Below are positions 31,437 to 36,824 of a DNA stretch of 64,000 nucleotides, one piece after another; position 1 is the first letter of the stretch; each line of letters begins with the position of its first letter. The stretch spans positions 1,054,001 through 1,118,000 of the forward strand of contig NZ_LT627734.1 of NCBI RefSeq assembly GCF_900100865.1, given 5' to 3'. The notes under the pieces are model-generated. The model saw only the letters and a program-made list of their open reading frames with translations. It was not told the DNA's origin and did no database searches. The translations under genes and the position numbers were made by a program. The stretch comes from Candidatus Aquiluna sp. UB-MaderosW2red (lineage in GTDB: Bacteria; Actinomycetota; Actinomycetes; Actinomycetales; Microbacteriaceae).

Positions 31437-32687
31437 ATGTTTTGTCGTTTTCGACTTGACAAGGGTTTAAGTTCTGCCCTGAAGAAGAAGGTAATCATCG
31501 CAACTATTTCGAAAGCAAAAGCCAAGTCAACCAAGGCTGCTCCGAAGAAGAGAGCGACCTCAGCCGATAACGATGAGTCCATAGGCTCTGATGACGATCT
31601 CGACTCTGTGGAATCAATCGTTGCTGAAGCGGCGGATGCTGTGGACTTGAGCGAGTCTGGCAAGCTCCAAGACTCCTCAGACCCGGAAACTGAGAGCATT
31701 CAACTACCAAGCAATGTCCTGGTGCTAAGCGATGACGAAGACGACATCCCAGTTCAAAACCTGACAATCAGTGGGGCTACCGCGGATCCAGTTAAGGATT
31801 ACCTAAAGCAAATCGGCAAGGTGGCGCTCCTAAATGCCGAGCTCGAGGTAGAGCTCGCGAAGCGCATTGAAGCTGGTCTCTTCGCGGAGGAGAAGCTAGC
31901 TATCTCCGAAAATCTTGCCCCGAGCGAGCGTCGCGATCTGAACTGGGTGGTGAAAGATGGACAGCGGGCAAAGAGTCACCTTTTAGAAGCGAACCTCAGG
32001 CTGGTAGTTTCATTGGCCAAGCGTTACACCGGGCGCGGCATGCAATTTTTAGATTTGATTCAAGAGGGAAACCTGGGCCTAATCCGTGCTGTTGAGAAAT
32101 TTGATTACACCAAGGGTTATAAGTTTTCCACCTACGCCACCTGGTGGATCCGCCAGGCAATCACCAGGGCTATGGCCGACCAGGCCAGGACCATTCGTAT
32201 TCCGGTTCACATGGTCGAGGTCATAAATAAACTCGCCCGGGTTCAGCGCCAGCTGTTGCAGGACCTTGGGCGCGAACCAACTCCCGAGGAGCTCGCTGCA
32301 GAGCTGGATATGACACCCGAAAAAGTCGTTGAGGTCCAAAAATACGGCAGGGAGCCAATTTCCTTATCAACACCTCTTGGCGAAGACGGTGACAGCGAAT
32401 TCGGTGACCTAATTGAGGACACCGAGGCCGTGGTTCCGGCTGACGCTGTGGGATTCACGATGCTGCAACAAGAGCTTGACCGTGTCCTTGAAAGTCTCCA
32501 CCCGCGAGAAGCAGGCGTAATACGCTCCAGATTCGGCCTCGGCGATGGGGTCCAAATGACCTTGGATCAAATCGGAGAAAAGTTTGGCGTTACTCGCGAA
32601 CGAATTCGTCAGATTGAATCAAAAACCATGTCTAAGTTGCGCCACCCCTCGCGCTCTCAACTTCTGCGCGATTACCTAGACGGCTAA
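31437..32687 (+). CDS. sigA: Primary RNA polymerase sigma factor
   Basis: Housekeeping sigma-70 that directs RNA polymerase to most promoters. 416 residues. The first about 30 residues are basic ([14 protein letters not shown]), followed by an acidic region. Region 1.2 starts at [13 protein letters not shown]; region 2 contains [17 protein letters not shown] and [20 protein letters not shown]; region 4 ends with [20 protein letters not shown]. An in-frame TAA lies two codons before ATG 31437, so translation cannot begin earlier. There is no good ribosome site for ATG 31437. murT follows without a gap. Confidence 0.97.
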
Positions 32688-33905
32688 ATGCGCACGATTC
32701 TGGCGATGGCAGTCGGAAAGCTGCTTCGCTTTCTAATTAGAATCGTCAGGCCCGGGGGAGGATCCGCTCTTCCCGGAACCGTAGCAAGACTGCTAGACCC
32801 CAAGCTCTTAGAGCGTGTCATCAAAACCGCTCCCATGGGTTTGGTAGTAGTTTCTGGATCTGCTGGAAAATCCACGACCACCAGCGCCTTGGTTCTTCTT
32901 TTAGAAGCTCATGGGCTGAGAGTGTTCACGAACCCTTCAACCGCTAACATTTTGCAGGGTTACTTTGCTGCGGTGCTGCAATTTGCAAACCTTCGCGGCC
33001 GCATTGCCGCCGATGTGGTCGTTCTGGAATGGGACGAGGGTCACGGAGCGGCTTTATCAAAGACCCTAAAACCTCGGCTCGCCGTGCTGACCAATCTACT
33101 CTCGGATCAATTGGATAGGTTTGTCGATCCGAGTCTTGTGCTGGATAAGTTGCGAACCATCGCCGAATCTTCTGAAGTTTTGGTAGCAAACTCAGATGAC
33201 CCGAATCTGAGAGAGCTAATTAAAAACCATCGGGCGAGCTCAAGTTTTGGGTTGTCTAGCGAGCTTTCAATTCGTGCTGACCGGCCAATTTATGCAGTTA
33301 ACTTCAATGAAGAAGCTGAAATCCCGGCTAGCGCGCTGGTTGTCGCATGCGATGCCAACATAAAGGTCAAAATGGTGAATGAGGTTTTCGAGTTCAAGGC
33401 CAAGACCTCGGGTCTGCATCAGGGGCTCAATCTGGCTGGAGCGCTCCTGGCCGCTTCCAAGTTGATTACTTTGGACCCAAGTCTTTGTGGCGAAGCCTTT
33501 AATCAAATGCCCGTGGTCTTTGCACGCGATGAATTGGCGATAATCAGAGGTCGTGAAGTCAGGCTGATGCTCGTGCAGAACTCCACAAGTTTTCAACTGA
33601 ATGTAGATTCTCTTCCGCTAGACCCTAGGCCCCTGATGCTTATGGCTGGGAGCGACATACACGACCCGAGTTGGCTCTGGGCGGTTGATTTTTCGACCCT
33701 CAAATACGTCGATGTGGTTGGGGGTTTCAATGCCCACGAGCTAGCCCTAAGACTTAAATTTGCAGGAGTAAATTTCGGTGAAGTCGTTGTTGAAGCAGAC
33801 AAAGCTGCCGAAAGCTTTTTGGCGCTTCCAGGGGAGTCCCCAGTAATCATGTTCTCCGCAGATGCTATGCGGCGCACTCGAAGACACCTCGGACTGGCAA
33901 AATGA
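32688..33905 (+). CDS. murT: MurT-like Mur ligase lacking the zinc ribbon
   Basis: 405-residue protein homologous to MurT, the ligase half of the MurT/GatD complex that amidates the alpha-carboxyl of D-Glu in lipid II. Seen: P-loop GSAGKST at 57-63 (MurT usually GTNGKT), the acidic LEWDEGHG near 113-120, TNLLSDQLDRF at 135-145, and the C-terminal (DUF1727) domain with the conserved Asp326 in HDPSW. Missing: the four-cysteine zinc ribbon inserted in the central domain of known MurT proteins; the only cysteines are Cys221 and Cys267. The motif equivalent to NPAG reads QNSTSF. ATG 32688 abuts the sigA stop and the stop overlaps the next start (ATGA), so the three genes are coupled. I infer an ATP-dependent ligase on lipid II, but its amine donor is open. 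Confidence 0.85.
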   Translation: MRTILAMAVGKLLRFLIRIVRPGGGSALPGTVARLLDPKLLERVIKTAPMGLVVVSGSAGKSTTTSALVLLLEAHGLRVFTNPSTANILQGYFAAVLQFANLRGRIAADVVVLEWDEGHGAALSKTLKPRLAVLTNLLSDQLDRFVDPSLVLDKLRTIAESSEVLVANSDDPNLRELIKNHRASSSFGLSSELSIRADRPIYAVNFNEEAEIPASALVVACDANIKVKMVNEVFEFKAKTSGLHQGLNLAGALLAASKLITLDPSLCGEAFNQMPVVFARDELAIIRGREVRLMLVQNSTSFQLNVDSLPLDPRPLMLMAGSDIHDPSWLWAVDFSTLKYVDVVGGFNAHELALRLKFAGVNFGEVVVEADKAAESFLALPGESPVIMFSADAMRRTRRHLGLAK

Positions 33906-34468
33906 TTTCGCTAGCCACTTTTCACCCGGAGCACTTCAATAACAATGCGGATCAGGGAAACATCGAGGTGTTGGCTATGTTGATGGCCAAGGCTGGAGTG
34001 GGCTATGAAATTTCAACAAGCATTTCCCCCGATTCGGATTTCGTACTCATTGGCGACGCGTCATTTGCGGCAATCGCGCACTATCAAGCTGAACTTGAAA
34101 ATCTTGTTCCGATTCTGACGGAGCGCTTAGAAAGTGGAAATCCGACCTTGATAGTTGGTTCGAGCTACGAGTTTTATCTAAAAAGAATTCCCGATTTTCC
34201 AAAGTATCGCATGGCCCAGCGAGTGTCTGGATTCGTCTCGGTGGTTACGAATTTGATGGAACCAGTTATCGGTTATCGAAACTCTGAATTATTCGACGCT
34301 GAAGTTTTTATTGCGGGAGCTTTTGTTGGGACTCAGCTATACGGTCCCGTTTTAGCCAAGAACCCAGAATTGCTGCAAATGATTTCGCTAAAAATGGGAT
34401 TCCAGCCTGCGCTGGACAGGTCCGACAGTGACCTTATTGCCGAAATTAGAAGGCGAACTATCTTTTAG
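33902..34468 (+). CDS. GatD-like protein without glutaminase catalytic residues
   Basis: 188-residue homologue of GatD, the glutamine amidotransferase half of MurT/GatD (about 240 residues in Staphylococcus). Homology is clear from FNNNADQGNIEVL near 12-24 and GTQLYGPVLAKNPELL at 143-158, which match the GatD N-terminus and its GTYLHGP..PKN motif. The nucleophile motif ICGGYQF is replaced by VGSSYEF (85-91): Cys becomes Gly86. The catalytic His is replaced by Tyr147. The whole protein contains no cysteine, and the oxyanion GGGSD segment is also not kept (IGDAS, 50-54). It cannot work as a Cys-dependent glutaminase. The frame is intact and coupled to murT, so I read it as a retained structural or regulatory subunit, not as a decaying gene. 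Confidence 0.82.
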   Translation: MISLATFHPEHFNNNADQGNIEVLAMLMAKAGVGYEISTSISPDSDFVLIGDASFAAIAHYQAELENLVPILTERLESGNPTLIVGSSYEFYLKRIPDFPKYRMAQRVSGFVSVVTNLMEPVIGYRNSELFDAEVFIAGAFVGTQLYGPVLAKNPELLQMISLKMGFQPALDRSDSDLIAEIRRRTIF

Positions 34469-34766: not shown

Positions 34767-36824
34767 GTGGAAACATACTCAGCAAGACACCTATCGGTAC
34801 TCGAGGGCCTAGAAGCCGTTCGCAAACGCCCAGGCATGTATATTGGCTCAACCGATGGTCGGGGCCTAATGCATTGCCTTTGGGAAGTTATAGACAATTC
34901 AGTGGATGAAGCGCTTGCTGGATACGGTAACTCAATAGAGGTGGACATTCACGAGGATGGCTCGATCTCCGTTTCTGACAACGGTCGAGGAATTCCAGTT
35001 GACATCGAACCCCGCACCGGCTTGACCGGAGTCGAGGTTGTGTTCACTAAGCTCCACGCCGGAGGAAAGTTTGGTGGCGGCTCTTACGGAGCCTCTGGGG
35101 GACTGCACGGCGTCGGAGCTTCGGTCGTGAACGCCCTGAGTGAGCGCTTAGATGTTCAAGTCGATAGGGGTGGCACCACCTGGGGCATGTCCTTTCATAG
35201 AGGAGAACCCGGGGTCTTCAATGGACCTGGACCAAAAGCACCCTTTTTGGCGTTTGAAGAAAATAGCGAACTAAAGAAACTCGGGAAGGTCACCAAGGGC
35301 TTAACGGGGACCAGAGTGAGATATTGGCCGGATGGTCAGATTTTTGAGTCTGCAGCGGAGTTTTCAATTCAGGATCTCACCAACCGACTGAGGCAGACCG
35401 CATTTTTAGTCCCCGGGCTAAAGCTCAGCGCCATGGAGCGGGCAACAGGTCAAAGCCTCGAGTTTCAATACCAGGGCGGGATTGTTGAATACGTTGAGTA
35501 CCTGAGCAAAGATGGCGCGGTTGTCCCCACCCGCAAAATCCAACACATCGGTAAATTCAATGAGACCATCCCGGTCTTGGACGAAAAATCCGGTTCGATG
35601 ATTTCCCAAGAGGTGGCGCGCGAATGCAAAGTGGACATAGCAATCCGCTGGGGTGAGGGGTTCGAGACTGACATTAGAAGCTTTGTAAACATAATCTCAA
35701 CGCCCAAAGGCGGATCGCACCTCAGCGGATTCGAGCAAGGGCTCCTGAAATCCGTCAGGGCCGCCATTGAAGCTAATGCTCGAAAGCTGAAAGCCACGGG
35801 TCTCAAAATAGAGCGGGACGATATTTTTGCAGGTCTCACCGCTGTGATTGCAGTGAGCTTTCCCGAGCCGCAGTTCGAAGGTCAAACCAAAGAGACCCTC
35901 GGCACTCCAGCAATCAGGCAGATAGTTGCAAACAGCGTCTCTTCTTACCTGGATGAATATCTTTCCGGGACATTGCGCGGCACAAAGCTCGAGGTTGAGA
36001 AGCTGCTCGACAAAATTGTAAGTGAGGCCAAAGCTCGCATCAGTGCTCGATCGCTGAAAGATACTCAAAGGCGGAAAAACGCCTTGGAGTCCTCTTCGCT
36101 TCCAACCAAACTCGTGGATTGCCGTGCGGACGCAACTTCGGGTTCCGAACTGTTTATCGTTGAGGGTGATTCGGCGCTCGGAACCGCAAAACTTGCAAGA
36201 GACAGCAAGTTTCAAGCACTTTTACCCATTCGGGGGAAGATCCTCAATGTTCAAAAGGCGTCTTTGTCGGACATGCTCTCAAACACGGAGTGTGCCTCTA
36301 TCTTGCAGGTTATTGGCGCGGGTTCTGGCCGAAGTTTCGACCTAGATTCAGTGCGATATGAAAAAATAATTCTTATGAGCGATGCCGATGTAGACGGCGC
36401 CCACATTCGAACCTTACTGCTCACGCTTTTTTTCAGATACATGAGGCCACTGGTGGAGGCGGGGAGAGTATATGCAGCAGTTCCGCCCCTGCACAGAGTA
36501 ATAATTCCGCAGGGCAAGACTAAGCAAACCATCTATACCTATAGCCAGCAGGAACTCAACGAGTTACTTGCGGGCTTAGAAAAAACCGGGAAAAGCTATC
36601 TTCAACCTATTCAGCGCTATAAGGGTCTGGGGGAGATGGATGCTGACCAGCTGGCCGACACCACAATGAACCCGAGTAATCGAATGCTGCGAAGAATAAC
36701 CGCCAAAGATGCACAAGCTTCCGATGAAGTCTTCGAACTTTTGATGGGAAACGACGTATCCCCAAGAAGAGATTTCATCATCGAATCAGCGGACACCTTC
36801 GATAGAGAAAAAATCGATACCTAA
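34767..36824 (+). CDS. parE: DNA topoisomerase IV subunit B
   Basis: ATPase subunit of type IIA topoisomerase that decatenates daughter chromosomes. 685 residues: GHKL ATPase with ARHLSVLEGLEAVRKRPGMY at the N-terminus, DNSVDEALAG, DNGRGIPVDI and GLHGVGASVVNALS; the TOPRIM domain with FIVEGDSALGTAK and MSDADVDGAHIRTLL; and the C-terminal YKGLGEMDADQL. GTG start at 34767. I call ParE and not GyrB from its pairing with a ParC gene convergent at 36821 (4-nt overlap) and its distance from dnaA-type genes. Confidence 0.94.
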   Translation: METYSARHLSVLEGLEAVRKRPGMYIGSTDGRGLMHCLWEVIDNSVDEALAGYGNSIEVDIHEDGSISVSDNGRGIPVDIEPRTGLTGVEVVFTKLHAGGKFGGGSYGASGGLHGVGASVVNALSERLDVQVDRGGTTWGMSFHRGEPGVFNGPGPKAPFLAFEENSELKKLGKVTKGLTGTRVRYWPDGQIFESAAEFSIQDLTNRLRQTAFLVPGLKLSAMERATGQSLEFQYQGGIVEYVEYLSKDGAVVPTRKIQHIGKFNETIPVLDEKSGSMISQEVARECKVDIAIRWGEGFETDIRSFVNIISTPKGGSHLSGFEQGLLKSVRAAIEANARKLKATGLKIERDDIFAGLTAVIAVSFPEPQFEGQTKETLGTPAIRQIVANSVSSYLDEYLSGTLRGTKLEVEKLLDKIVSEAKARISARSLKDTQRRKNALESSSLPTKLVDCRADATSGSELFIVEGDSALGTAKLARDSKFQALLPIRGKILNVQKASLSDMLSNTECASILQVIGAGSGRSFDLDSVRYEKIILMSDADVDGAHIRTLLLTLFFRYMRPLVEAGRVYAAVPPLHRVIIPQGKTKQTIYTYSQQELNELLAGLEKTGKSYLQPIQRYKGLGEMDADQLADTTMNPSNRMLRRITAKDAQASDEVFELLMGNDVSPRRDFIIESADTFDREKIDT

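Follow-up and report, generated by a model that had tools for sequence, protein, structure and literature searches.

A cysteine-less MurT/GatD pair at an exchangeable locus of Microbacteriaceae: candidate amino-acid ligase for group B peptidoglycan

What can a MurT/GatD pair do once its glutaminase subunit has lost the catalytic cysteine? The question is raised by two adjacent genes in a stretch of 64,000 nucleotides from Candidatus Aquiluna sp. UB-MaderosW2red (family Microbacteriaceae; contig NZ_LT627734.1, positions 1,054,001 to 1,118,000), here called the window and numbered from its first letter. The first gene (32688..33905; all features described here lie on the forward strand) encodes a MurT-like Mur ligase of 405 residues with an intact ligase site. 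The second (33902..34468), whose ATG overlaps the MurT-like stop by 4 bases, encodes a GatD-like pseudo-glutaminase subunit of 188 residues. The gene order murT-gatD and the Mur ligase central and MurT_C domains are common to this pair and to the isoglutaminyl synthase of Staphylococcus aureus and Streptococcus pneumoniae. Comparison across the family and its order indicates that the pair is probably a MurT/GatD descendant, switched from glutamine-dependent amidation to the ATP-dependent ligation of an amino acid to the alpha-carboxyl of D-Glu.

The MurT-like protein matched the NCBIfam MurT model NF045635 (E 1.6e-30; 106.4 bits versus an equivalog cut-off of 800), the Pfam families Mur_ligase_M (PF08245; 5.8e-12, 46.4 bits, cut-off 24) and MurT_C (PF08353; 1.5e-7, 31.8 bits, cut-off 25), and the S. 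pneumoniae MurT structure, PDB 6fqb (1.6e-28). The homology of its partner to GatD appears weak but real: no Pfam match was obtained, while the NCBIfam GatD model NF052463 was matched over the C-terminal signature (2.3e-4; 21.1 bits versus a cut-off of 450), as were the PDB GatD chains 5n9m and 6gs2 (E 0.004). Unlike genuine MurT/GatD, the window pair thus falls far below the equivalog cut-offs. Its nearest relatives were found in metagenome-assembled genomes (MAGs), namely those of Aquiluna (59%), one labelled Auritidibacter (61%) and, at similar values, Microbacteriaceae MAGs without a genus label.

For comparison, 199 genomes were drawn from the Microbacteriaceae and 248 from their order, of which 137 and 87, respectively, contained MurT_C. 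The fetched loci yielded 181 pairs of MurT and its partner, all of which were kept as alignment rows (145 from the family, 36 from other families of the order). In this alignment, Gly86 (codon 34157..34159) and Tyr147 (codon 34340..34342) of the GatD-like protein fall in the Cys and His columns of the glutaminase, and no cysteine occurs among its 188 residues; the single Cys in the stop-to-stop open reading frame (ORF) of the window row lies upstream of the ATG. The initial annotation, which had described a GatD homologue deprived of its active site in this way, under-stated the matter, as the loss is family-wide. The glutaminase Cys was kept in 58 of the 181 pairs (22 from Microbacteriaceae and all 36 from other families) and was absent from 123 of the 145 Microbacteriaceae pairs, to which all Cys-less pairs belong. 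The initial annotation had named an equal loss in relatives with A-type peptidoglycan as a possible counter-finding; outside the family, Cys loss was seen in none of the 36 pairs read. In the MurT tree, 108 of the 123 Cys-less pairs, the window included, form one clade (FastTree support 100), and 39 clade rows again fell on one side of a branch with a Shimodaira-Hasegawa-like approximate likelihood ratio (SH-aLRT) support of 100 in a 69-row IQ-TREE run.

Within this clade the Cys column is occupied by Gly (76 rows), Ala (19), Ser (6), Asn (4) or Thr (3). The nucleophile being gone, glutamine hydrolysis by the known mechanism must be taken as lost in the GatD-like protein. The loss is not a sequencing oddity, because three genomes of the same genus have G/Y or G/F at the Cys/His columns and because Cys was found in none of the 79 GatD partners recovered among the best 80 of 464 named-genome relatives. 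Those 80 relatives, which may share genomes with the drawn sets, comprise Cryobacterium (16), Rhodoluna (8), Aquiluna (5), Agromyces (4), Plantibacter (3), one each of Microterricola, Rathayibacter, Glaciibacter, Compostimonas, Amnibacterium and Ruicaihuangia, three Auritidibacter-labelled MAGs and 35 without a genus. Cys was likewise seen in none of 21 further clade loci (in one of them the column is a gap). In the order draw, every match to the clade profile better than 1.2e-125 was in Microbacteriaceae; clade members there scored 4e-173 or better, the window 8.5e-148, and a few divergent members inside the family only 1e-89 to 1e-126. The restriction to the family applies within the order draw, and beyond the order it was covered by the best 80 of the 464 named loci.

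The ligase subunit presents the opposite picture. Residues were counted in the 108 clade rows versus 58 canonical rows, in S. pneumoniae numbering, and their roles are those given in PMC6085368. MurT K59, N85, E110, D112, E113, N132, Q137, R140, R304 and D355 are invariant in 108/108 clade rows, and K59, N85 and D355 were also kept in all 80 named-genome rows and all 21 further rows. The P-loop Lys, the acceptor Asn, the Mg-binding Asp-Glu and Asp355 are thus shared with MurT/GatD; Asn85 and Asp112-Glu113 face the acceptor carboxylate (PMC6085368). The corresponding site in the window consists of the P-loop K61 together with N87, E114, D116, E117, N136, R280, N298 and D326, the last (codon 33663..33665) being the equivalent of Asp355. 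The sites for ATP, acceptor carboxylate and Mg therefore look intact. The GatD-like proteins mostly retain the Asn/Pro signatures of GatD, as well as the Arg aligned with the one presumed to capture glutamine (PMC6085368), which was kept in 101 of 108 rows (Arg107 in the window, codon 34220..34222).

Other positions differ from those of MurT/GatD. Tyr30 of GatD, which plugs the ammonia passage in S. pneumoniae (PMC6085368), is Tyr in 58/58 canonical rows and in none of the 108 clade rows, of which 74 have Asn (Asn15 in the window, codon 33944..33946). At MurT R135, beside the gate that faces GatD, all 58 canonical rows but none of the 108 clade rows have Arg, the latter mostly having Val or Ile. 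In addition, the Thr of the last conserved MurT motif (58/58 canonical) has become acidic near the C-terminus of every clade MurT (Glu in 62, Asp in 46, and Asp or Glu in 21/21 further loci); in the window this new invariant residue is Asp392 (codon 33861..33863). We infer from this pattern a ligase that is still active, to which ammonia is no longer delivered and which may accept a charged amino acid.

The MurT-like protein would then activate the carboxylate of a peptidoglycan precursor as an acyl phosphate, as suggested by its intact residues and by the chemistry of Mur ligases. The window protein belongs to the same superfamily as MurC to MurF and would share their chemistry, in which an acyl phosphate is combined with an amino acid; it has the MurT layout, however, whereas MurC to MurF act on UDP-linked precursors and carry a uridine-binding domain at the N-terminus. 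By descent, the target should be the alpha-carboxyl of D-Glu in lipid II. With a free amino acid as the nucleophile in place of ammonia, the product would be the first residue of a group B bridge. The GatD-like protein may have a structural role in which it closes the C-terminal domain of MurT, and the Arg that it retains, together with the unplugged passage, may help to hold or guide the amino acid. The proposal of the initial annotation, i.e., conversion to a ligase with another nucleophile and GatD as a non-catalytic subunit, thus gains support from the comparison.

An intact ligase site would also be expected if the MurT-like protein still amidated D-Glu, using free ammonia from solution, with the GatD-like protein as a stabilising relic; amidotransferases commonly fall back on ammonia-dependent activity. 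We consider this unlikely, as it leaves unexplained the loss of the plug and the new invariant acidic residue as well as features described below: two sharply separated subtypes, the linkage of one of them to a racemase, and the presence of an intact pair alongside the converted one in four genomes. Moreover, in group B walls the alpha-carboxyl of D-Glu bears the cross-bridge. The Microbacteriaceae have been described as B-type (PMC10978784).

A census of the 199 family genomes with the clade profile placed the pair in 129, of which four (G054, G066, G124, G163) also carry a canonical pair. The remainder comprise 18 genomes with a canonical pair only, 12 with a second Cys-less lineage, four odd ones and 36 without MurT, i.e., with no clade-profile match better than about 1e-13 and no PF08353 match. 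The figure of 129 was obtained by subtraction, 124 genomes being checked by sequence and five (G038, G149, G162, G172, G182) by profile score only. In the window genome (1.66 Mb, one contig, 99.97% complete) a single MurT_C match was found; the second, intact MurT/GatD pair that would have spoken for the initial annotation's own counter-case is lacking there.

The small genome and the short protein of 188 residues might suggest genome reduction, with the GatD-like protein decaying as a pseudo-enzyme and the pair losing its function. The same Cys loss occurs, however, in family genomes of 3 to 4.6 Mb, and K59, N85 and D355 were kept in 108/108, 80/80 and 21/21 rows, as was the position beside rpoD in 104/107 and 79/80 loci. 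Decay in a reduced genome was rejected on this conservation across large genomes and is highly improbable.

The 15 Cys-less rows outside the clade consist of three odd rows and a second Cys-less group of 12, in which His replaces Cys in an HNALEV-like motif, the CXXC pairs are kept, and the D355 column holds mostly Asn (or Met). This second lineage (L024-L031, L070, L122-L124) was located mostly at the same rpoD locus, and in genera g37, g42, g48 and g67 some genomes carry it while others carry the type of the window. Genus g53 (L093, L126, L367) contains another Cys-less MurT/GatD lineage beside a weaker CofE-like gene (E about 1e-46). Two further genera, g59 and g83 (L018-L021), have canonical MurT/GatD of CobQ-like appearance with an AICAGYQ-like motif and CXXC kept, in family genomes of 1.6-2.2 Mb.

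The clade itself falls into two subtypes. At MurT columns 83, 321 and the acidic position of the last motif, 39 of the 108 rows have T/Q/Asp and 67 have G/K/Glu-or-Asp, with two odd rows. The window belongs to the Q321 subtype, as do 79 of the 80 named-genome loci (the remaining one, L188, has Leu at 321). An alanine-racemase-like gene (PF01168 and PF00842) was found near 21 of 37 K321 loci versus none of 20 Q loci in the set L062-L121, for which about 3 to 6.5 kb was fetched, and near none of the 80 named-genome loci, for which up to 9 kb was fetched.

Published wall chemistry bears on the Q321 subtype. Rhodoluna lacicola has a B2beta (B10) wall with D-Ala-D-2,4-diaminobutyrate (Dab) (PMC4156110), Cryobacterium a B2gamma wall with Dab (PMC7033078), ornithine also being reported in one Cryobacterium (PMC12113805), and Agromyces aureus a B2gamma wall (PMC5217419). 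Microbacterium species vary between lysine, ornithine and Dab (PMC10757982). Dab walls have been published for four named genera, all of the Q321 subtype, these links being at the genus level; the K321 subtype and the CofE-like set described below are without named genomes. Because relatives with published walls contain Dab, the first bridge residue in the subtype of the window is probably D-2,4-diaminobutyrate.

The position of the pair in the genome offers a second line of evidence. It lies between rpoD, encoding the primary sigma factor (31437..32687), and parE, encoding topoisomerase IV subunit B (34767..36824), the left and right borders of a variable locus; both identities were assigned from the sequences of the ORFs, and both proteins served as queries in the flank searches. 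Among the drawn clade loci, 104 of 107 had an rpoD match in their fetched flanks, as did 79 of 80 named loci and 13 of 15 other Cys-less loci, versus 0 of 58 canonical pairs, a weak comparison since the flanks of the latter were mostly only 1.5 kb. In the five canonical-pair genomes that were read at rpoD, the interval is an empty gap of 0.5 kb (G014, G024, G003, G059) or a gap of 0.9 kb (G070). Downstream of rpoD in 22 MurT-less genomes, 19 carry a CofE-like protein between rpoD and parE, 17 an ATP-grasp protein and 11 a racemase-like gene; three of the CofE-like ORFs were missed in gene picking and recovered by genome-wide matches. In two others (G019, G051) the gap of 0.5 kb is empty, and in G049 it holds other ORFs. 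In three genomes (G020, G057 and G177; L337:1345-2664, L320 and L347), a gene for an EctB/Dat-like diaminobutyrate aminotransferase lies within the rpoD-parE interval or next to it.

The CofE-like proteins (230-238 residues; 73% mean column identity among 16 aligned) belong to the F420-0:gamma-glutamyl ligase family (PF01996; 1.6e-12 for the one tested), and the ATP-grasp protein of the locus to PF14397 (1.4e-44, one tested). CofE is a nucleotide-dependent carboxylate-amine ligase in which an amino acid is added with no glutaminase involved, and thus provides a working analogy for the converted pair, although it represents an unrelated protein family. The window pair had no PF01996 match in the Pfam or NCBIfam searches, and no CofE-like protein was matched in the window genome at E 0.001. 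At E <1e-100, CofE-like proteins were detected in 27 of the 199 family genomes, i.e., in 27 of the 36 MurT-less genomes and none of the 129 pair genomes (Fisher 1e-14, kinship ignored). Left out of the 27 were G053 and G123 (about 1e-45, beside an odd MurT), G147, and 30 genomes with matches of 2e-6 to 9e-4. The ATP-grasp protein occurs in 34 genomes: 25 of the 27 with CofE-like, seven of the 12 with the second lineage, one of the 129 clade genomes, and G099, two weak matches (G014, G051) having been left out.

Nine genera contain both CofE-like and clade-pair genomes and provide better evidence than the Fisher values, which ignore kinship. The same pattern was seen in genus g85 of the order draw, where six MurT-less genomes have the CofE-like protein and three genomes with the pair lack it. 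This also bears on whether the link with B-type walls might be a phylogenetic coincidence, the pair being a family-specific variant with an unrelated role in the cell envelope. The wall types are indeed genus-level reports for four genera, and the clade lies inside a single family; yet mixed genera are not produced by family history alone, and both the exchange partner and the racemase belong to enzyme families of amide bonds and D-amino acids. Such a coincidence strikes us as decidedly improbable. An extra Mur ligase as a substitute for the pair in MurT-less genomes was rejected on Mur_ligase_M counts: 13 MurT-less genomes had five matches (ten genomes) or six (three genomes), versus six to eight in 15 pair genomes, and in the three with six (G139, G194, G408) the best match to the pair profile was 5.9e-7 or weaker.

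The exchange suggests that in other family members a CofE-like ligase at the same locus carries out the equivalent step, and at least three solutions seem to replace one another there within the family. The claim of the initial annotation that the pair might supply the first, missing step in forming B-type cross-bridges is consequently too broad as a general statement, because only 129 of the 199 genomes have the clade, while 27 have the CofE-like protein and 12 a distinct Cys-less lineage; at most, the pair can start the bridge in some members of the family. It is possible, though we advance it tentatively, that the rpoD-parE interval is an exchangeable cassette that sets the type of the bridge. 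In this scheme a single residue would be attached to D-Glu directly by the converted MurT-GatD, two residues would be added where an ATP-grasp protein is combined with either the CofE-like protein or the second Cys-less MurT-GatD, and the cassette racemase would make the D-diamino acid where needed; MurT and CofE would each descend from an amidotransferase and each have lost its glutaminase on changing nucleophile.

The presence of two ligases, CofE-like and ATP-grasp, in many MurT-less loci implies that more than one bond may be made, and thereby leaves room for a pair that ligates an amino acid to another carboxylate or precursor, e.g., to add the second bridge residue, rather than to the alpha-carboxyl of D-Glu, which is indicated as acceptor by MurT descent alone. 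The acceptor-facing Asn85 and Asp112-Glu113 are, however, invariant in 108/108 rows (roles from PMC6085368), and we regard this alternative as quite unlikely.

The history of the CofE-like domain outside the family runs parallel to that of MurT. Outside Microbacteriaceae, 19 of 230 genomes of the order draw, from families f6, f12 and f18, have it in open frames of 809-1016 residues, and in eight of nine such loci that were read the domain forms the C-terminal part of a long ORF (L356, L358-L364). Pfam analysis of six of these proteins showed a glutamine amidotransferase domain in each and an Asn_synthase domain in five. The five f6/f18 fusion proteins read have an N-terminal CGI(A/V)G cysteine motif, which the three from f12 lack. 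The domain is thus fused to an amidotransferase outside the family and stands alone inside it. LtsA/AsnB-type enzymes carry out the glutamine-dependent amidation of a lipid-linked wall precursor (PMC7920481); they differ in fold from the window pair, and in this analysis they appeared solely as the N-terminal portion of CofE fusions. Among the 54 order-draw genomes of f6, f12 and f18, 19 have the long protein without MurT, 31 have MurT without the long protein, and four have neither (Fisher 5e-11, kinship ignored). Outside the family the two ligases, MurT and CofE-like, therefore seem to serve as alternatives for amidation, whereas inside it both lack a working glutaminase, and the AsnB-CofE fusion becomes a candidate alternative system for D-Glu amidation. 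The parallel loss of the glutaminase in two ligases suggests that the nucleophile was switched from ammonia to an amino acid, and is the best single argument for the proposed conversion.

Several observations weigh against this proposal. The pseudo-site is not uniformly decayed, since the His column keeps His in 62 of the 108 clade rows (it is absent in 46) and the third residue of the glutaminase triad is Asp or Glu in 107. The intact and converted pairs occur together in the four genomes mentioned above, although their coexistence points to a separate job rather than to a refutation. The wall types come from relatives, none from the organism of the window itself, and Compostimonas has a wall of type B1 rather than B2, with L-Dab (PMC7033078). 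As a marker of Dab walls, the diaminobutyrate aminotransferase model TIGR00709 scored over its cut-off in 35 of the 199 genomes with no visible relation to the clade, and the genus of the window is not among the 35. One clade genome (G018) carries the ATP-grasp protein, and in another (G147) a stand-alone protein with remote CofE-like similarity is encoded elsewhere (7.3e-38). Nine of the 36 MurT-less family genomes also lack a CofE-like protein; if these nine and the 18 canonical-only genomes are all B-type, the model misses enzymes. For the empty loci and ligase-less genomes, either the walls differ or more enzymes exist.

In the open-access literature searched, which leaves subscription papers mostly outside its scope, no enzyme was named for the step that joins D-Glu to the bridge amino acid of group B peptidoglycan. 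No open-access papers were found that link MurT, GatD, peptidoglycan and Microbacteriaceae, or that treat the biosynthesis of group B peptidoglycan in the family, mentions of group B being mostly, by title, in taxonomic and genome reports. The proposal, if true, would provide candidate bridge enzymes for 168 of the 199 family genomes (129, 27 and 12), and would mean that two unrelated ligases took the same evolutionary step of losing a glutaminase and changing nucleophile. Species of one genus that differ in cassette should then differ in their bridge, and the AsnB-CofE fusions would be predicted to form a further D-Glu amidation system outside the family.

Two minor points concern the MurT proteins themselves. 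Loss of the zinc ribbon was rejected as a special trait, as most canonical pairs in this set also have no CXXC in MurT. A second MurT overlooked in the window genome was likewise rejected: in addition to the single MurT_C match, the genome has six Mur-ligase domains (Mur_ligase_M matches) in all, and the five other proteins, judged from their positions only, would be MurC to MurF and FolC, four of them clustered in the manner of a division and cell-wall cluster.

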